Positions 49,947 through 59,070 of a stretch of DNA of 64,000 nt are shown piece after piece. The stretch's first letter is position 1; every line of letters starts with the position of its first letter. Source of the stretch: Picrophilus oshimae DSM 9789. GTDB lineage: Archaea > Thermoplasmatota > Thermoplasmata > Thermoplasmatales > Thermoplasmataceae. The stretch is from NCBI RefSeq assembly GCF_900176435.1, contig NZ_FWYE01000001.1, positions 310,001-374,000 of the forward strand. Reading direction: 5' to 3'. The notes beneath the pieces are model-generated. The model did no database searches. It had not been told where the DNA came from and saw only the letters and a program-made list of their open reading frames with translations. Both the position numbers and the translations under genes were made by a program.

Positions 49947-50039
49947 TATACAGGTTTATAAAAAAATATTTCATCTAAATATTTCGATATATATTAATTT
50001 AAAATTATATCCAGATAGAAATATTTAAATACTGAATTT

Positions 50040-50047
50040 TTTATATA
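50040..50047 (+). promoter_or_regulatory. Candidate box A of the sugar ABC operon
   Basis: TTTATATA is partly covered by the left operator arm. A second candidate, TTTAAATA at 50024-50031, would place the transcript start inside the repeats. Either way the repeats would block TBP or RNA polymerase. Confidence 0.45.
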
Positions 50048-50072
50048 CTAATAGTAGTTAGTATAAACTACT
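50045..50072 (+). promoter_or_regulatory. Two interlocked inverted repeats, likely operator
   Basis: ATACTAA-N6-TTAGTAT (50045-50064) and AGTAGTT-N6-AACTACT (50053-50072) are both perfect 7+6+7 repeats, offset by 8 bases and sharing sequence. They sit between the TATA box and the ribosome-binding site (GAGGGGAT) of the binding-protein gene. The likely ligand is the TrmB-like regulator encoded at the far end of the locus. This is inference. Confidence 0.6.
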
Positions 50073-50083
50073 GAGGGGATGAA

Positions 50084-51406
50084 ATGGAAAAAAAGACCTT
50101 GATAGCCATTATAGTTGTTATTATTGTGGTTGCAGCCATAGCTGGTGGGGTTGAATATCATAGTATAACAAGTAAACCGGCAAAAGCATCCATTGTTTTC
50201 TCCGGTTGGGTCTCCAGTGGTGCAGAATACACATTTGATTTACAGATGGTAAAAACCTTTAATGACATGCACTCAAATGTCACCGTAAAATTTGTTCCAA
50301 TAACTACAAATTACTATGGTACTCTGGAAACCGAGCTTTCATCAAACTCTGGTCCAGGAGTCTTCTATATGGAGAATGACATATTACCTGAATTTGTCAA
50401 GGGCGGTTATTTAATGGATCTGAGTCCAGTACTTACGTCAAATAGCACATACAATATAGGTGGATTCGCACCACAGATACTTGATACCTTTATGCAGCAT
50501 GATCAGCTTTATGCCGCACCAAAGGACTGGAGTCCGCTATTTGTACTTTTTAACAAGAATATTTTCAATGCAGAGCATGTTCCATATCCAACAAATTATA
50601 CAAACTGGAACTGGACGAATTTTCATAAGACGCTGGTTTTGCTCAAAGATAATGAAAGCATGCTACCAGGCAATGGCAAGGGATACTATCCAATGGTTCT
50701 TGGGCCGCAGTTTGCCAGGATACTTGCCTTTATGCATGAGGCAAAGGGCCAGTGGATAAATGCCATGGGCGATGGTGCATCATCAAACAGCAATGGACTT
50801 TTAACTGCAATAAAATTATGGTACGGCCTTTATTCAAGTGGCCTGGCAGGCCTGAACAGCAATCTTAGTGCCGGCTGGAACGGCGGTGATTTTGCATCTG
50901 GCAAGGTTGGCATGGTAGTTACAGGCACATGGACTGTACCTGTTCTTGAGGAAAATGGCTCTGCATTTAAAAATGACATGTCTGCCGTTGGATATGCATT
51001 CATGCCATATGATGTTCAGAACGCAACAATGATGTTCAATGTTGGGCTTGCAATTAACAGCCATTTAACATCAACACAGAGATGGATAGCGGAGCAGTTT
51101 GTAATGTTCTTTACAGGACCTGCAGGAGAAAAGCTCTGGGTCTCAAAGGGCCTGGCACTTCCATCAAGGACGTCAATACTGGAGAGCAGCTGGTACAAGA
51201 CAAATTTCCCGATACAGAGCTTTGCCGGTAAGCAGTTCCCGAATGCCTATGGCTGGAACTACAATACAACAAACTTCCAGGTGACAGAAAGCACAGCACA
51301 CAGCATAATCGTTGACCTATTTGCAGGAAAGATTACACCTGAGCAGGCATATAATGAGATAATAAACGAGACAAATGCAAATCTAAAAGGAACATCAACC
51401 CTTTAG
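50084..51406 (+). CDS. Sugar ABC transporter, substrate-binding protein
   Basis: 440 residues. An N-terminal membrane anchor/signal (5-24) is followed by a cluster B/MalE-type solute-binding fold: IVFSGWVSSGAEYTFDLQMVKTFNDM, FYMENDILPEFVKGGYLMDL, YAAPKDWSPLFVLFNKNIF, GKVGMVVTGTWTVP and the GEKLWVSKGLALPSR hinge region. It captures a sugar or oligosaccharide outside the membrane. First gene of a six-gene operon. SD GAGGGGAT precedes the ATG. Confidence 0.92.
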   Translation: MEKKTLIAIIVVIIVVAAIAGGVEYHSITSKPAKASIVFSGWVSSGAEYTFDLQMVKTFNDMHSNVTVKFVPITTNYYGTLETELSSNSGPGVFYMENDILPEFVKGGYLMDLSPVLTSNSTYNIGGFAPQILDTFMQHDQLYAAPKDWSPLFVLFNKNIFNAEHVPYPTNYTNWNWTNFHKTLVLLKDNESMLPGNGKGYYPMVLGPQFARILAFMHEAKGQWINAMGDGASSNSNGLLTAIKLWYGLYSSGLAGLNSNLSAGWNGGDFASGKVGMVVTGTWTVPVLEENGSAFKNDMSAVGYAFMPYDVQNATMMFNVGLAINSHLTSTQRWIAEQFVMFFTGPAGEKLWVSKGLALPSRTSILESSWYKTNFPIQSFAGKQFPNAYGWNYNTTNFQVTESTAHSIIVDLFAGKITPEQAYNEIINETNANLKGTSTL

Positions 51407-51420
51407 GTTCAGTGATTTTA

Positions 51421-52341
51421 ATGGATTCAAATGTATATGAAAATAAGAAAATAAATGTCGGGGATAAGAAAAAAAGGAAAGACCCTGAAAGGCTCACGGG
51501 TATTGTTTTTATAATCCCCCTTATGTTTTTTATTACTGTTTTCACATTTTTTCCCGCTTTTTATTCTTTTGCAATAAGCCTGTTCCATTACAACCCATTT
51601 TTTCACAGTATTTATTTCGTTGGTGCATCAAATTATATGGATGTCATAAGGGACCCGGCCTTTATAAGGGCATTGATAAATGTTTTGATATACACCGCTG
51701 TTGTCGTGACCGTTCAGACATTCCTTGCGTTTGGATATGCACTTTTATTTAACACAGCATCAAGGATAAGCAGAATTGCAAGGGCAATAGTCTTTATACC
51801 TGCCGTGGTCTCCCCGGTATCAATGTCCATTATATTTATATGGGTATTCTCTGACACGGGGCTTGTAAACTATTTCCTATCGTTTTTTGGCATACCACCG
51901 CATAACTGGCTTTTTAGCACAACCTATGCATTTCCGGCAATAATGGCAATGAACATATTCACAACGGCACCGTACTTTATGATAGTTTACTCTGCAGGGC
52001 TTCAATCAATACCATCTGAGATAATGGATGCAGCCAAGATAGATGGTTTAAAATCAGGAATAAAGAGGTTTCGATACATATATTTTCCATTGATGAGGTT
52101 TTCCACTATACTGGTTGTTATACTCGGTCTTACAGGTGCAATGCAGCTATTTGACCAGATCTATGTGATAACGGATGGTGGTCCCGCAAGGGCAACATAT
52201 GTACCATTAATGTACATATATAATAGAACCTTTGTTTACGTTGGTGATATTGGGCTTGCAGCAGCGGCATCCTTCGTGCTTTTTGTGATAATAATGATTC
52301 TTACAGTAACACAGAGAAAAGTAATAACGGATAGAAGGTGA
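51421..52341 (+). CDS. Sugar ABC transporter permease (MalF type)
   Basis: About 306 residues with six helices and the permease EAA-type loop ESIPSEIMDAAKIDG variant (SIPSEIMDAAKIDGLKSGIKRFRYIYFP). The ATG at 51421 is preferred over an upstream in-frame GTG, because GTGAT lies just before it. Forms the membrane channel with the next gene product. The stop overlaps the next frame. Confidence 0.92.
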   Translation: MDSNVYENKKINVGDKKKRKDPERLTGIVFIIPLMFFITVFTFFPAFYSFAISLFHYNPFFHSIYFVGASNYMDVIRDPAFIRALINVLIYTAVVVTVQTFLAFGYALLFNTASRISRIARAIVFIPAVVSPVSMSIIFIWVFSDTGLVNYFLSFFGIPPHNWLFSTTYAFPAIMAMNIFTTAPYFMIVYSAGLQSIPSEIMDAAKIDGLKSGIKRFRYIYFPLMRFSTILVVILGLTGAMQLFDQIYVITDGGPARATYVPLMYIYNRTFVYVGDIGLAAAASFVLFVIIMILTVTQRKVITDRR

Positions 52342-52346
52342 TAAAA

Positions 52347-53213
52347 GTGTTCTGGAAAAAAAGAAGAAAAATATATGCTGGCGAAACTTTAAAGATGTAC
52401 ATAATATATACTGTTTCAATATTGCTTGCAGTAATATATTTAATACCATTTTACTGGACTGTGATAAAATCATTTAGAAATAGCATATTTGCAAATTTCC
52501 CGCCTGATATGAACCCGTTAAGCAAAACAAGCCCATCATATTTTATAATTAATTTAAAGACCGTCTGGGGTTTTGGAGATTTTCCGCTCTGGTATTTCAA
52601 CAGTGTTTTTGTTTCAATTGCGGTCGTTATTGGAAGCGTTTTTGTGGGAATGCTTGCTGGCTATGCATTTGCAAGGCTCAGATTCCCTGGAAGAACCTAT
52701 CTATTTTATTCAGTCCTTGCAACGCTTATGATACCTTTTCCTGTTATATCAATAGCATCATATGTTTTCATGCTTGATCTAAACTGGCTCAGCACCTATC
52801 AGGGATTAATACTTCCGCAGATAGCATCCGCACTCGATGTTTTTATAATGAGGCAGTATTTTTTAACAATACCTGAGGAGGTGGAACTTGCAGCAAAGAT
52901 AGATGGTATGAAACCATGGCAGATCTTCTTCAGGGTAAGTGCCCCAATGGCAAAGCCAGCAATTGCAGCTGCAACAATATTTTCATTTATAGGCTCATGG
53001 AATAACTTTTTATGGCCGCTCATGGAGGTGCACAGCCTGCACATGTTTACATTACCTCTGGTGCTCAATTTCTTTAAGGGTGCCAATGGAACGCAGATAT
53101 ACTGGAACCAGATGATGACTGTAAACATATTGACAATAATACCAACGATAGTGATCTTCATCGTTTTTGAAAAGTACTTCATAAGCGGCATTTCATTAAA
53201 CTACTCAAGGTGA
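52347..53213 (+). CDS. Sugar ABC transporter permease (MalG type)
   Basis: About 288 residues, six helices, EAA loop IPEEVELAAKIDGMKPWQIFFRVSAPM. The GTG at 52347 is preferred because the GGTGAT site overlapping the previous stop lies 4 bases upstream. The frame opens at the GTG within that site. Pairs with the MalF-type subunit. Confidence 0.92.
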   Translation: MFWKKRRKIYAGETLKMYIIYTVSILLAVIYLIPFYWTVIKSFRNSIFANFPPDMNPLSKTSPSYFIINLKTVWGFGDFPLWYFNSVFVSIAVVIGSVFVGMLAGYAFARLRFPGRTYLFYSVLATLMIPFPVISIASYVFMLDLNWLSTYQGLILPQIASALDVFIMRQYFLTIPEEVELAAKIDGMKPWQIFFRVSAPMAKPAIAAATIFSFIGSWNNFLWPLMEVHSLHMFTLPLVLNFFKGANGTQIYWNQMMTVNILTIIPTIVIFIVFEKYFISGISLNYSR

Positions 53214-53217
53214 TTTT

Positions 53218-54318
53218 ATGGGTATAGACATTGAAGATCTAAATGTAAGTTATGGTGGCAATGAAATATTAAAGAATTTTAATTTAAGAATAAATGACGG
53301 CGAATTCTTTGTAATACTTGGATCGTCAGGAAGTGGTAAGACAACACTCCTAAGAAGCATAGCCGGATTAATACCAATAGATTCAGGAAAAATATACATA
53401 GATGGCAATGATGTAACAGATCTTTATCCTTCAGACAGGAATATATCAATGATCTTTCAGAACTTTGCACTCTATCCGCACATGACAGTTTTTGACAACA
53501 TATCATTAAATTTAAAGATAAGGCATGTGCCAAAGGATGAGATAAAGAAAATGGTCAATGATGTTACCGAGATGCTTCATATAAAACAGCATTTAAAAAA
53601 GTATCCAAGGCAGCTGTCAGGTGGAGAGCAGCAGCGTGTCGGCATGGCAAGGGCAATGATAAGGAACCCATCCGTGTTTTTAATGGACGAACCGCTCTCG
53701 AATCTTGATGCCAAGCTAAGAAGGGAAATGCTTGGAGAGCTTAGATCCTTCCATGAAAAAATTAAAAAAACAATAGTTTATGTCTGCCATGATCAGGACG
53801 AGGCAATGGCCCTTGCCGATAGGATACTTGTGCTTAACCAGGGCAATATAATGCAGATAGGCACACCAGATGACCTGTATGAACACCCGTTAAATGTTTT
53901 TGTTGCGGGTTTTATAGGAAATCCACCGATGAATATAATCAAATGCGAGATGGAAAATTCAAGGTTAATTATTGAAGACTTTTCAATAGACATTGATGAT
54001 GATTTAAATGGCCATGCATACCTTGGAATAAGGCCCGAGATACTTGGACTGTCAGAAAAACACGGAATACCGGCAGCATTTGATTATTATATAAATTCTG
54101 GATTAAACATTGAGGTGCACGCCACCATCGATGATTCACCTGTAAGGGCTGTTATACCAAAGGAAGAGGTGCAATCATATATAAAGGATTTTAAAAATGG
54201 TGATACAATATATTTAAGTATAAAGCCAGGTAAACTGTATGTTTTCAATGCAGATAGCGGTTCAATTATAAGGGAGGTTGAATACGGTGGTTTCAAAAAC
54301 GTTGAGAGATCTAATTGA
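53218..54318 (+). CDS. Sugar ABC transporter ATP-binding protein (MalK/MsmX type)
   Basis: 366 residues. Walker A LGSSGSGKTTLL (about 38-48), Q-loop MIFQNFALYPHM, signature LSGGEQQRVGMARA, Walker B VFLMDEPLSNLDAKLRRE and H-loop VYVCHDQDEAMALAD, followed by a C-terminal TOBE/regulatory domain (about 240-366). Powers the transporter. GGTGAT overlaps the previous stop before the ATG. Confidence 0.95.
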   Translation: MGIDIEDLNVSYGGNEILKNFNLRINDGEFFVILGSSGSGKTTLLRSIAGLIPIDSGKIYIDGNDVTDLYPSDRNISMIFQNFALYPHMTVFDNISLNLKIRHVPKDEIKKMVNDVTEMLHIKQHLKKYPRQLSGGEQQRVGMARAMIRNPSVFLMDEPLSNLDAKLRREMLGELRSFHEKIKKTIVYVCHDQDEAMALADRILVLNQGNIMQIGTPDDLYEHPLNVFVAGFIGNPPMNIIKCEMENSRLIIEDFSIDIDDDLNGHAYLGIRPEILGLSEKHGIPAAFDYYINSGLNIEVHATIDDSPVRAVIPKEEVQSYIKDFKNGDTIYLSIKPGKLYVFNADSGSIIREVEYGGFKNVERSN

Positions 54319-56215
54319 GGAGGCAAGGAATCTGGACTGGGACGATAATTACACCGATATTAGGCACTGGATTAAGGTAAAAAATAATGCAATGGATTCA
54401 TTTAATTACAGCATGGTCAAGGGATCAAAGGCACATTTTATATCATATATAAATGGCGTTATATACAGGTCTGACATGCATAGATCAAGGACCGGATACT
54501 GGAAAAATGATGTAAACCATCTTGCCTCCGTTGATGGATATATAAATAATAAATCAATGGGTGATGCATTTTTAAAGTATGTGCGCGGCCTTGGATACAT
54601 ATACAGGGAATATTTAAATCTTGAGAGGCTGGATTATATATCTGAAAATGACGGTTCACTGCATATACAGCTGATTTCAGATTATAAGGCAAAAGTCAGG
54701 CTTAAATTTGAAATAGGGCATACAAGGGCATGGCCATCATGTGATGTTTTTAATAAAATTGATGTAAAAATTGCTAAAAACACTGTTTATATATCATCGA
54801 ACATATCAAAAACAGTAATAAACGTTTTGTGCTCTGGAAACACCAAAATAGATTCCTATAATAATTTTGTTTACATTGATATTGAATCATTTTCAGATGC
54901 GGAGATTATAGTATCGGACAGTGATGTTTATTCCGATGATATTGATGATACATTGAATTATCATAATATTATAGAAAAAACTGTAATACTTGAAACGCCG
55001 GACTTTGAATTTAACAAGCTCTTTCTATGGGCCAAGCACGATATCCTTGAGTTCTACAGCGAGACAAAAAATGGTAGTGGCTGGTTCGCCGGGTTTCCTG
55101 TTTACTCATGGTTTTTTGGCAGGGATGGTCTCTGGATGGCCCTTGCAGCAAATCAGATAGGATTAACGGAACTAACCTTAAAGCACATGCGTCTGCTATT
55201 CAAATATTCGGACAAAGGAAGGATACCACATGAGATAGGTCTCGGTAATATTATGGATCAGAATTATTCAATAAATAATACAAAATTTAACACAATGTAC
55301 ATGTCAATAGACAGCAGCCTGCTATGGCTCCTTGTAAATGAATCTGTTAAAAACTGGTATAAATCTGATTTTGATGATAATGATATAAAGAATGTCCTTG
55401 ATTTTCTATATAGCTGTGATTCTGACAACGATCTTCTTCTGGAAAACGATTTTATGAAAGGTTTGATAGGCTGGCCTGAGACATGGGCAAACATAAGGAA
55501 TGGAAAGACCGTTGACATAAATGCACTCTGGATTGAGGTTCTTAAATATTACAGAAATGATGAATACGATTATGCATTGAAGAGATATGTATCGCTTTTC
55601 TTTAATGAGTATATGAGCATAGATTTCATAGATTCAAAAGCACATGAAATAAAAAGTGCCATGCAGTTTGTGCCGGGCATATTTTTAATGGATCAAAGGA
55701 TTTCAAAAAGGCTCAGAGACCTTATACCAGGGATGTTTACGCCATGGGGTTTAAGATCAATGTCCGTCTACGATGAAATGTACGACGGCGGATATCATAC
55801 AGGAACGGTATGGCCGTTAATGACAGGATGGTTCGTACTATCTGCATATAACAATGGTCTTAAAGATGAGGCCTTTAATGCGCTAAAAACATTTGTTAAT
55901 GCCGCGTTCTCTGCGAATGATCCGGGAAGAATAAATGAAACATACGATCCGGTTAGCTTTACACCAACGGGTCAGTTCGCCCAGGGCTGGTCATCATCAA
56001 TGTTTGTATTATCATTAATGCAGGGAATGCTTAACATAAATTCCCTGGATTTCAAACCTGAAAACTTTGAGTGCAAAAACATACCTGAATCATGGGATTA
56101 TGTAAAAATTCATAATTTAATATGGAGGGATAAATTCTATGATGTTTACATTAACCATGATTATCATTCCATAATTGAAATAAAGATGAGTGATGTAAAT
56201 GAGGATAATAGGTGA
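54287..56215 (+). CDS. Six-hairpin glycosidase, amylo-alpha-1,6-glucosidase-like (first copy)
   Basis: 642 residues. An N-terminal beta-rich domain (about 1-240) is followed by an (alpha/alpha)6 barrel with YSWFFGRDGLWMALAANQIGL, GRIPHEIGLGNIMD, LIGWPETWANIRNGKTVDINALWIEVL and GGYHTGTVWPLMTGWFVLSAY, as in glycogen-debranching-type enzymes. Cytoplasmic. Probably hydrolyses the imported glycan. The GTG at 54287 is chosen from a GGAGGT site 8 bases upstream. This start lies inside the end of the ATPase gene. Confidence 0.8.
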   Translation: MVSKTLRDLIEEARNLDWDDNYTDIRHWIKVKNNAMDSFNYSMVKGSKAHFISYINGVIYRSDMHRSRTGYWKNDVNHLASVDGYINNKSMGDAFLKYVRGLGYIYREYLNLERLDYISENDGSLHIQLISDYKAKVRLKFEIGHTRAWPSCDVFNKIDVKIAKNTVYISSNISKTVINVLCSGNTKIDSYNNFVYIDIESFSDAEIIVSDSDVYSDDIDDTLNYHNIIEKTVILETPDFEFNKLFLWAKHDILEFYSETKNGSGWFAGFPVYSWFFGRDGLWMALAANQIGLTELTLKHMRLLFKYSDKGRIPHEIGLGNIMDQNYSINNTKFNTMYMSIDSSLLWLLVNESVKNWYKSDFDDNDIKNVLDFLYSCDSDNDLLLENDFMKGLIGWPETWANIRNGKTVDINALWIEVLKYYRNDEYDYALKRYVSLFFNEYMSIDFIDSKAHEIKSAMQFVPGIFLMDQRISKRLRDLIPGMFTPWGLRSMSVYDEMYDGGYHTGTVWPLMTGWFVLSAYNNGLKDEAFNALKTFVNAAFSANDPGRINETYDPVSFTPTGQFAQGWSSSMFVLSLMQGMLNINSLDFKPENFECKNIPESWDYVKIHNLIWRDKFYDVYINHDYHSIIEIKMSDVNEDNR

Positions 56216-57917
56216 TTATAAACCAAATCATAAACCGTACACAATCTCATCAATGAAAGCCTATTTTACAGGATTCCTGGATTTAATGCCCGATTCCATT
56301 GGATATCACATACCTGGCAACATGAATGGGCTCTGGTTTCCGCCCGTGCGTGCTTTAAAGAACGTCTACATTTTAAATGGTAATGAAATCGTTAAGCCCA
56401 AAAGGGTCATTTTATATTCATCCGGCATTGAATTCCATAATGATGATCTATTGCTTAAATTCTGGTTTGATAAAAACAGCATTTTCAGGATAAAAATAAA
56501 CAGCATGAAAAATTATAATATTGAACTTATCATGGAATTAATGCCATTAAACACCTGGTTCAGTATAAACGATACACGGATACTTGAGAAAAAGCATTTA
56601 ATCACAATTTCAAGCCAGATGTTTACCGATACAAGAATAAAAATAAGAACTGGAAATCCATTTATTTTAAAAGATGGTATTTTAAAAATTGATGTTAAAA
56701 AATCCTCAGAAGTTGAAATATATAATTATTTTAACATTAATAATAAGATACCTGTAAACAATTACAGTGATATCAATAGGTTTTCAGTGCTTAAATCAGA
56801 GGGGAACATGCCAAGGAATTTTACAATGGCCAAGGAAAATCTAATAAGGCTCTCCATGATTATTCCAGGAATAGGATACGGATTAACCGCAGGGCAGCCT
56901 GACTTTCCATGGTACTTCGGTATAGACAGCATGCTTTCAATAAATGGCATGCTTTACTCGGGTTTTTTTAACCTTGCACGTGGATCGCTGAACATTCTGG
57001 CAAGGTTCAGCAGGTCCGGTAAAATACCGCATGAAATACTGCAAAGTGGAAAGATATACAATGATGGTGATCTTGAGGAAACGGCACTTTATCCATATGC
57101 AGTTTTTAGGTACATTAAATTTTCATGGAATTTAAAAGAAAACCTGCATTTAATAAAAACTGCAGGTGAATCATTTAATTATATCATGGAGCATGGTTAT
57201 AGTGGCCGCGGCATTATGGAGGATCCTGGCGCGGGCTCCGGCATTGACATAGATACAATAACGTTCACAATCATGTCATTAAAGGAATTGATGGATTTTA
57301 AAAACTGCGATAGCGAAGAGATACTTAATATGATCGATGTTTTAAATCCGGGTGAAAAAATAGATGGGCTTAAAAAGATCATAAATAATTTCTGGTTAAA
57401 TGAGAAAAAAACCTTTGCAAACAGGATAATAGACAATACGCCCTATGACCATGGCTTCTGGACTTCAATACTGCCATTTTATTCAAATCTGGCAACAAAT
57501 AATCAGTACAGGATGTTTGCAGATTACAACGGAGGTTTATCATCGATGAAATCTGATTCTGGTATTATGATTGATAGATCCGGGAATACAATGCCATTGA
57601 ATACAGGAATGTTTTTAATTGCCGCGGCAGCATATGAAGATTCAGAAAATGCACTTTACTGCCTGGAAAAGCTCAATAATTCATTTGAAAGGTTCTCACC
57701 AGGCTCATGCCCGGAGATTTCAAATAACAGTCATGGATGCTTTCTACAGGCCTGGTCTGGTTCGTTATACATAGAGTCCATTGCCAGCGGAATATTTGGC
57801 ATAAAAATAGAGAATGGAAAACCTGTATCATCACCGTTGAAGAACCATGGCCTTGGGCATGCACGGCTTGAAAAATTAAGGTTTGGCAGTGTTTTATACA
57901 ATTTTAATTTATATTAA
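56199..57917 (+). CDS. Six-hairpin glycosidase, debranching-enzyme-like (second, diverged copy)
   Basis: 572 residues. The C-terminal half is an (alpha/alpha)6 barrel with AGQPDFPWYFGIDSMLSINGMLY, GKIPHEILQSGKIYNDGDLEETALYPYAVFRYI and DNTPYDHGFWTSILPFYSN. The N-terminal ~190 residues form a beta domain. Related in layout to the preceding enzyme but clearly diverged, so it may cleave a different bond. Its ATG overlaps the previous gene by 17 bases. Its end overlaps the convergent regulator by 14 bases. Confidence 0.75.
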   Translation: MRIIGDYKPNHKPYTISSMKAYFTGFLDLMPDSIGYHIPGNMNGLWFPPVRALKNVYILNGNEIVKPKRVILYSSGIEFHNDDLLLKFWFDKNSIFRIKINSMKNYNIELIMELMPLNTWFSINDTRILEKKHLITISSQMFTDTRIKIRTGNPFILKDGILKIDVKKSSEVEIYNYFNINNKIPVNNYSDINRFSVLKSEGNMPRNFTMAKENLIRLSMIIPGIGYGLTAGQPDFPWYFGIDSMLSINGMLYSGFFNLARGSLNILARFSRSGKIPHEILQSGKIYNDGDLEETALYPYAVFRYIKFSWNLKENLHLIKTAGESFNYIMEHGYSGRGIMEDPGAGSGIDIDTITFTIMSLKELMDFKNCDSEEILNMIDVLNPGEKIDGLKKIINNFWLNEKKTFANRIIDNTPYDHGFWTSILPFYSNLATNNQYRMFADYNGGLSSMKSDSGIMIDRSGNTMPLNTGMFLIAAAAYEDSENALYCLEKLNNSFERFSPGSCPEISNNSHGCFLQAWSGSLYIESIASGIFGIKIENGKPVSSPLKNHGLGHARLEKLRFGSVLYNFNLY

Positions 57918-58941
57918 AATACCTCATTATTACATCCTCAAGCTGTGAATCGTAGCCCCCAACAGTAAATTTTCCATTTTTTGTTTCAAAAACAAAGTTT
58001 ATGACATCACTGTCCAGATTTATTCCTGTTATGGACCCCTGCTCATGAAAGCGTTTTCCTGTAAGGCGGAATGATCCATCCAGCACGCCATTGATATTTA
58101 TTCCATTTAGGCCCTTTAAATCACCTATTAGTATCCTCTGTGATGAATATTTATATGGCCTTATCAACGGCATCTTTAATATTTCCATTGCCCTGTACCA
58201 GCCAGTGAAAAAGTTATGGGTTATGAACCATGACATGTCCCTATCTTTTATAATATAGCCATACCTTTCCATGTTTATATTCATTGCCACACCACGTGGC
58301 ATGAAAACGGAATTTGTTTCATCAGAGATGACTGCAAAAAACTGCCCTGGCATGATATATTTTATATCGATTTCCATGCCTGAAAATTCGTTTTTTATCA
58401 TTTCAGTTTTAATATCATTGCCAAAGAACATAATCTCAATGCGGCATCCGCCTTTGAGCTTTCTAATTATTGGATCCCTTATATAATTGTATAGCTCCCA
58501 GGTGGTTTCTATTTCCAGCGTTTCATTTGCATTGTTTATTAGCTCTATTGAGTTGTTTATCACGCTTTTAATGTTCTTTGCATTGATGAGCGCGGTTTTT
58601 TCGTGCCTGTTTTGGATTGCAATGTTTGCCCAGTTTAGAAAATACTCCCTGTTCCTGTTTAGTATCTGCTCCCTGGCCTCAACAACGGCCTCTGGTTCTA
58701 TGGCCTCATATTTCTTTGGCCTTCCAAGGAGTATATTGATAAAGCCCTTCCTCTCAAGGCCTGCTGTTACGTCATAAAGCTGTGGCTGGCGTAGTGGCAG
58801 ATAGTTTAATATATCCTGTGCGGTCATGCTGCCATGCTCAAGGAGCAGGATATAAACCCTGGATTCGTTTTCCGTAAGACCCATATCCTGCAAAACAGAT
58901 ATTATATCAGAATGGCCTGATCCATCAGATCTCGCTGGCAT
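57904..58941 (-). CDS. TrmB-like sugar-responsive transcription regulator
   Basis: About 345 residues. The N-terminal TrmB winged helix (about 10-85: MGLTENESRVYILLLEHGSMTAQDILNYL... RQPQLYDVTAGLERKGF) is followed by a short coiled segment and a C-terminal effector domain (about 100-345) with the ETTWELYNYIRDPIIRKLK pattern. TrmB proteins bind maltose or trehalose and control sugar ABC operons. Located at the end of the operon in opposite orientation. The start is taken at ATG 58941, about 30 bases after a TATAAA element. The frame opens 18 codons earlier. Confidence 0.87.
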   Translation of the reverse strand: MPARSDGSGHSDIISVLQDMGLTENESRVYILLLEHGSMTAQDILNYLPLRQPQLYDVTAGLERKGFINILLGRPKKYEAIEPEAVVEAREQILNRNREYFLNWANIAIQNRHEKTALINAKNIKSVINNSIELINNANETLEIETTWELYNYIRDPIIRKLKGGCRIEIMFFGNDIKTEMIKNEFSGMEIDIKYIMPGQFFAVISDETNSVFMPRGVAMNINMERYGYIIKDRDMSWFITHNFFTGWYRAMEILKMPLIRPYKYSSQRILIGDLKGLNGININGVLDGSFRLTGKRFHEQGSITGINLDSDVINFVFETKNGKFTVGGYDSQLEDVIMRYFNIN

Positions 58942-58971
58942 AGCAGGAATATTGAAAATATAATAATATAA

Positions 58972-58982
58972 TTTTATACTAA
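58972..58982 (-). promoter_or_regulatory. Promoter element of the TrmB-like gene with shared TTAGTATAAA
   Basis: Read on the minus strand, TTAGTATAAA is identical to 50058-50067 in the sugar operon operator. It contains a TATA-like core at the right distance from the regulator start, so identity may reflect either autoregulation or simply a TATA box. Confidence 0.4.
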
Positions 58983-59070
58983 TTGAGAATTGCATATAAA
59001 TAATGTTATAATAAATATATTAGAAATTAAAAAAATCATAACATAAAATGATTAAGAAAGATCAATGTTT

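Follow-up and report, generated by a model that had tools for sequence, protein, structure and literature searches.

Two inverted repeats that share bases in the promoter of a sugar transport operon of Picrophilus oshimae DSM 9789 are probably signals of different kinds: a DNA operator of a TrmB-type regulator (repeat 1) and a hairpin at the 5' end of the messenger RNA (repeat 2), interleaved on the same bases. From comparative sequence evidence we give this reading a probability of roughly three in four. Comparison of related genomes shows that the operator is conserved and restricted to two promoters, and that repeat 2 varies in ways that preserve its pairing. The repeats lie in a window of 64,000 nucleotides (contig NZ_FWYE01000001.1, positions 310,001 to 374,000 of the forward strand), which is the whole stretch of DNA that was analyzed and to which the coordinates of the operon, its promoter and trmB refer (Table 1). 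An earlier sequence-only reading had proposed that a protein dimer could occupy either repeat, as part of a repressor switch over the TATA box and start region.

Promoter layout and repeat geometry

Table 1. Features of the sugar operon, its promoter and the linked regulator gene in the window.
Feature	Position	Strand	Evidence
Predicted TATA box TTTAAATA, sugar operon promoter	50024..50031	+	Sequence; TATA-like element in orthologous promoters
Repeat 1, DNA operator TATACTAA-N6-TTAGTATA, very probably of the TrmB-type regulator	50044..50065	+	Core conservation; restriction within genomes
Operator N6 spacer TAGTAG, 5' arm of the hairpin; variable sequence	50052..50057	+	Pairing covariation
Repeat 2 extended, predicted mRNA 5' hairpin	50052..50073	+	Compensatory and G.U changes in six species; folding
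Arms and loop of the predicted hairpin	arms 50052-50059 / 50066-50073; loop 50060-50065	+	
Shine-Dalgarno sequence GAGGGG	50073..50078	+	Sequence
Sugar-binding protein gene, ABC transporter	50084..51406	+	PF13416, 90 bits
Two permease genes	51412-52341, 52338-53213	+	PF00528
MalK/UgpC-like ATPase gene	53218..54318	+	PF00005; UgpC and MalK models
Two glycoside hydrolase-like genes	54278-56215, 56199-57917	+	PF06202 GDE_C; retained in relatives
TrmB-type regulator gene (trmB)	57904..58995	-	PF11495, 163.3 bits; PF01978, 68.7 bits
Degenerate operator copy TATGCAATTCTCAATTAGTATA, trmB promoter	58975..58996	-	Also at trmB in four Thermoplasma-type relatives

The trmB gene is convergent with the sugar operon and lies at its far end. 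Both repeats sit between the TATA box and the Shine-Dalgarno sequence, the first base of which pairs with the first base of the hairpin according to calculated pairing probabilities. In orthologous promoters a TATA-like element precedes the operator by 21-23 bp, a similar distance throughout, and position n1 is a pyrimidine in 11/11 and n2 a purine in 9/11 of these promoters. The TATA spacing and the n1/n2 pattern predict that transcription starts near 50053, so that the hairpin would form the 5' end of the message. Of the position first proposed for the repeats, the part that concerns the start region agrees with this prediction, but the TATA box lies upstream and is not covered.

The repeats themselves are exactly as first described. 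Repeat 1 (ATACTAA-tagtag-TTAGTAT, 50045-50064) and repeat 2 (AGTAGTT-agtata-AACTACT, 50053-50072) are perfect 7-6-7 inverted repeats, interlocked with an offset of 8 within bases 50045-50072 (ATACTAATAGTAGTTAGTATAAACTACT), and repeat 1 extends outward by one base on each side to the 22-bp motif listed in Table 1. The window holds 13 inverted repeats of the 7-6-7 type, and two nearby ones arise in about 20% of shuffles of the local AT-rich sequence (884 bp). Geometry alone is consequently weak evidence, and we rejected the idea that the interlocking is unusual per se. The reality of both repeats rests instead on comparison across species, which shows conserved sequence in the case of repeat 1 and pairing maintained by compensatory change in the case of repeat 2.

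A search of the genome (1,534,155 bases) for many unrelated copies, as the sequence-only reading had suggested, did not find them: the exact 20-mers of repeats 1 and 2 occur once each. Two copies of repeat 1 with one mismatch, at C1:1392 between two unrelated genes and at C2:331701 within a coding frame, were not taken as operators.

Conservation and distribution of the probable operator

Orthologous promoters were listed from a protein search for the binding protein in 117 genomes of the order, a list that is independent of the motif. The protein was found in 12 of these genomes, the copy in G081 being a C-terminal remnant. In 11/11 genomes whose binding-protein gene has kept its 5' end, the core TACTAA-N6-TTAGTA lies directly upstream of that gene, about 22 bp past the beginning of the TATA-like element. 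Among these promoters there is no variation at positions 50046-50051 and 50058-50064, and the N6 spacer and the flanks are variable. The complete cassette, including the convergent trmB, is retained wherever the contigs of the relatives are long enough.

The relaxed operator pattern TATRC-N9-TTAGTATA has two matches in the window genome and no others, one at the transporter promoter and one at the trmB promoter; G082 and G083 give the same result. An intact transporter promoter is lacking in G006 and G081, and their sole site is that of the trmB promoter. The full 22-bp motif is present in 10 of the 390 genomes of a phylum sample, six with the cassette, three of the genus g18 and one isolated.

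Several genomes show local rearrangements or stray sites. A deletion in G081 (L097:1501-1866) fused the C-terminal part of the binding protein to an acetolactate-synthase-like frame and removed the operator; the trmB operator is kept despite this loss. The corresponding stretch of G006 (L089:8919-14805) contains trmB, both hydrolases and the ATPase, and the binding protein and permeases were not found in it. The isolated occurrence of the full motif is in a distant genome of the phylum (L119, G275:C205:3231-3252).

At the trmB promoter, the degenerate operator is carried by the window genome and the four Thermoplasma-type relatives; no clear operator was found upstream of trmB outside Picrophilus and Thermoplasma-type species, nor in G024. 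The longest trmB frame begins at 58995 on the minus strand, inside the trmB operator, and within 58939-58995 homology together with the position of the operator indicates that the real start is probably the ATG at 58941.

Conserved pairing in repeat 2

The operator spacer with the two bases that follow it (N6+TT) and its downstream partner change together between species. They read TAGTAGTT/AACTACTG in the window genome, TAACAGTT/AACTGTTG in G024 and G083, TAGCAGTT/AACTGTTG in G082, TGACGGTT/AACCGTTG in G078 (with the AACTGTTG variant on another contig of the bin) and TGCCAATT/AATTGGTG in G085. Standard pairs fill 48/48 cells, with double changes at four pairs, in six distinct leaders from six species, a pattern owed in part to descent. 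The covariation score, obtained from an alignment with an N placeholder in the loop, was 0.517 versus 0.274 in shuffled alignments (0/500), and every slid control scored lower. Compensatory changes in the six leaders therefore go beyond both the shuffled and the slid controls, the behavior by which a conserved structured RNA leader is recognized. When seven leaders are counted, 30/42 spacer cells are Watson-Crick pairs and 12/42 are G.U pairs when read as mRNA, with no A.C and no unpaired cells.

The letters of the arms are those of the lineage (AGTAGTT, AACAGTT, AGCAGTT, GACGGTT or GCCAATT), and four of the species have a loop of 7 nt, the window genome and G085 one of 6 nt. Because pairing is conserved, and G.U pairs and changes of loop length are tolerated, whereas letters and spacing are not conserved, an mRNA hairpin fits repeat 2 better than a second operator. 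We conclude that repeat 2 is probably a conserved hairpin of the message and not a protein site, and that its pairing has probably been selected. A search of Rfam returned sub-threshold chance matches only, none above the gathering score.

It is unlikely that repeat 1 is the operator and repeat 2 a functionless accident, produced by AT-rich sequence and common ancestry or by a template switch that perfected a quasi-palindrome. Such an origin would suit the small number of species compared, the frequency of overlapping short inverted repeats in the local shuffles, the marginal hairpin at growth temperature and the lack of the structure in G008, which has no hairpin, and in G073 and G074, which fold otherwise. 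It accounts poorly for double-sided changes at four positions and for complete pairing measured against shuffled and slid controls. Furthermore, the chance that a random spacer pairs with its partner at 6/6 positions is 0.001-0.016 per leader, and the 12 G.U pairs are not expected from template switching.

The linked TrmB-type regulator

The regulator gene encodes a protein with the TrmB winged helix-turn-helix domain and the Regulator_TrmB effector domain (PF01978 and PF11495, respectively), both scoring above the Pfam cut-off. Scores with NCBIfam equivalog models of characterized regulators were 53.7 bits versus a cut-off of 600 for the Pyrococcus type and 79 versus 500 for the Halobacterium type. 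The protein is a member of the TrmB family and not an equivalog of a characterized one. No residue of its recognition helix, LRQPQLYD, varies among the 11 TrmB orthologues that were compared. In Pyrococcus TrmB, Tyr50 and Asp51 contact DNA and Gly320 and Glu326 contact the sugar (PMC4158304). All four residues are matched in an alignment to 3qph, of which the C-terminal stretch is a weak match taken alone, and they are conserved in the orthologues.

The restriction of the site, the invariant helix, the contact residues, the TACT half-site and the position over the start region together point strongly to TrmB as the binder, and repeat 1 is very probably its operator. The earlier proposal of a repressor switch on the sugar operon, very probably worked by the linked TrmB-type protein, thus gains support from an operator that is both conserved and confined to these promoters.

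We consider it improbable that repeat 1 is the operator of some other regulator. The observation that would favor it comes from g18, a genus without a close TrmB orthologue, in which the identical 22-bp motif, TATACTAA-N6-TTAGTATA, stands at another promoter. In four species (L072:9818, L073:8268, L074:391 and L075:9976) about 15 nt separate it from a downstream zinc-ribbon-like frame of 112 aa; another regulator that recognizes a site of this form may act there. In the genomes discussed above, however, the site is limited to the transporter and trmB promoters and stays at trmB after loss of the transporter promoter, its TACT half-site is that of known TrmB sites, and the recognition helix of TrmB does not vary.

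Very little remains for the proposal that both repeats bind the same (or another) protein dimer, with overlap making occupancy mutually exclusive or cooperative: the two perfect 7-6-7 repeats with their offset of 8 and the AGTA or its complement in all four arms are as it would have them in the window genome, but repeat 2 has arms that vary by lineage around a spacer of 6 or 7, its non-Watson-Crick pairs are exclusively G.U in the sense strand, and neither the trmB promoter copy nor the transporter promoters of five more distant species, all of which keep repeat 1, contain it.

Comparison with known systems

The arrangement resembles that of TrmB in Pyrococcus furiosus and Thermococcus litoralis, in which the site at the malE (trehalose/maltose) promoter is TACT-N3-AGTA (PMC4158304): a sugar ABC operon is linked to trmB, a palindrome with TACT half-sites lies in the core promoter, and the regulators belong to a common family and have the residues that contact DNA and sugar. 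The spacing differs, being TACT-N10-AGTA here (11/11), and so does the position, which is over the start here and over BRE/TATA at malE. A match to the Pyrococcus-type TACT-N3-AGTA at 50046-50056 occurs in the window genome only, is not conserved, and was set aside as incidental.

The closest NCBIfam regulator model by score is that of Halobacterium TrmB (the 79 bits given above, below cut-off). The site of the Halobacterium salinarum protein (VNG1451C) is TACT-N7-8-GAGTA (PMC4158304), and it shares with repeat 1 the TACT...AGTA form with a long spacer, the spacing differing by 1-2 bp. Halobacterium TrmB represses when its site is downstream of the promoter; its regulon is global, whereas the conserved site described here is at two promoters only. 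TrmBL1/Tgr, which binds the Thermococcales glycolytic motif TATCAC-N5-GTGATA (PMC4158304), offers a parallel in position, since an operator downstream of TATA and over the start allows it to repress by blocking polymerase recruitment; the half-site sequence here is different. Members of the TrmB family act as repressors when their site follows TATA and covers the start (PMC4158304).

A 2014 review of the TrmB family tabulates no binding site for Thermoplasmatales (PMC4158304), and among the papers that we searched there was nothing useful on start sites or TrmB sites in Picrophilus or Thermoplasma. Repeat 1 provides a concrete candidate operator for the TrmB regulators of this order.

Bacterial operators are in some cases transcribed into 5' hairpins, as in the lac operator region, where an operator at the start is transcribed in part. 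In the lac type the operator palindrome is itself the hairpin, whereas here the hairpin would be a repeat distinct from the operator and offset from it, made up of the unread spacer and bases further downstream. To our knowledge, structured 5' leaders are little described in Thermoplasmatales-type archaea, and a covarying hairpin at a predicted transcription start makes a direct test case for them. The example also cautions against assuming that each of two interlocked inverted repeats in a promoter binds a protein.

Proposed mechanism

What follows is inferred: that TrmB binds, represses and is released by sugar, where transcription starts, and what the hairpin does. A TrmB-type dimer would occupy TATACTAA-N6-TTAGTATA, which follows TATA and spans the transcription start, and in this position block RNA polymerase; sugar would free the operator. 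The regulator would also repress its own gene through the degenerate operator copy. The six spacer bases, apparently unread by the repressor, and the right half-site would open the transcript, where they would form, with the bases downstream, a short 5' hairpin with a 3' arm that runs up to the Shine-Dalgarno sequence. This structure most likely would prevent base pairing between the spacer and the ribosome-binding site and cap the 5' end. A spacer that a repressor leaves unread could, on this evidence, carry a second message in RNA.

A further step, in which the interleaved DNA and RNA elements make up a two-layer sugar switch, with TrmB controlling transcription and the hairpin translation or mRNA decay, is tentative and rather doubtful. 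On this tentative reading, the spacer of the more distant relatives G013 and G046 would have acquired a new target, the start codon or the Shine-Dalgarno sequence.

Stability of the predicted hairpin and the ribosome-binding site

Taken alone, the fold is modest (z about -1.9). At 60 C the hairpin of the window genome has an energy of -2.5 kcal/mol, and those of the five further species range from -1.4 to -4.3. Such stability is marginal at the temperature of growth, and the role of the hairpin may depend on temperature or on a factor. The predicted effect of the hairpin was assessed by pairing probabilities of the real spacer relative to random spacers. The ranking by total folding energy, in which the real spacer was 1226 of 4096, is confounded in the window genome by GC-rich spacers that pair with GAGGGG.

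The real spacer of the window genome is paired at 5.8 of its 6 bases. Pairing of the Shine-Dalgarno sequence is 0.14 with this spacer versus 0.56 with random ones (p 0.003), and 0.07 versus 0.36 in G085 (p 0.017). By the same measure, the freeing of the Shine-Dalgarno sequence was not significant in G024, G082, G083 and G078, and in G078 the real spacer frees the start codon. The opposite effect is seen in G013 and G046, where the partner of the spacer is the start codon or Shine-Dalgarno sequence; either the spacer has been reused there in a different RNA fold, or the argument that all leaders share one function is weakened.

The two G078 contigs (L081:5761 and L082:333) differ by one base in the 3' arm of the hairpin, CCGTT versus CTGTT, which turns a G-C pair into a G.U pair. 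These variants may represent an intermediate at the level of the population.
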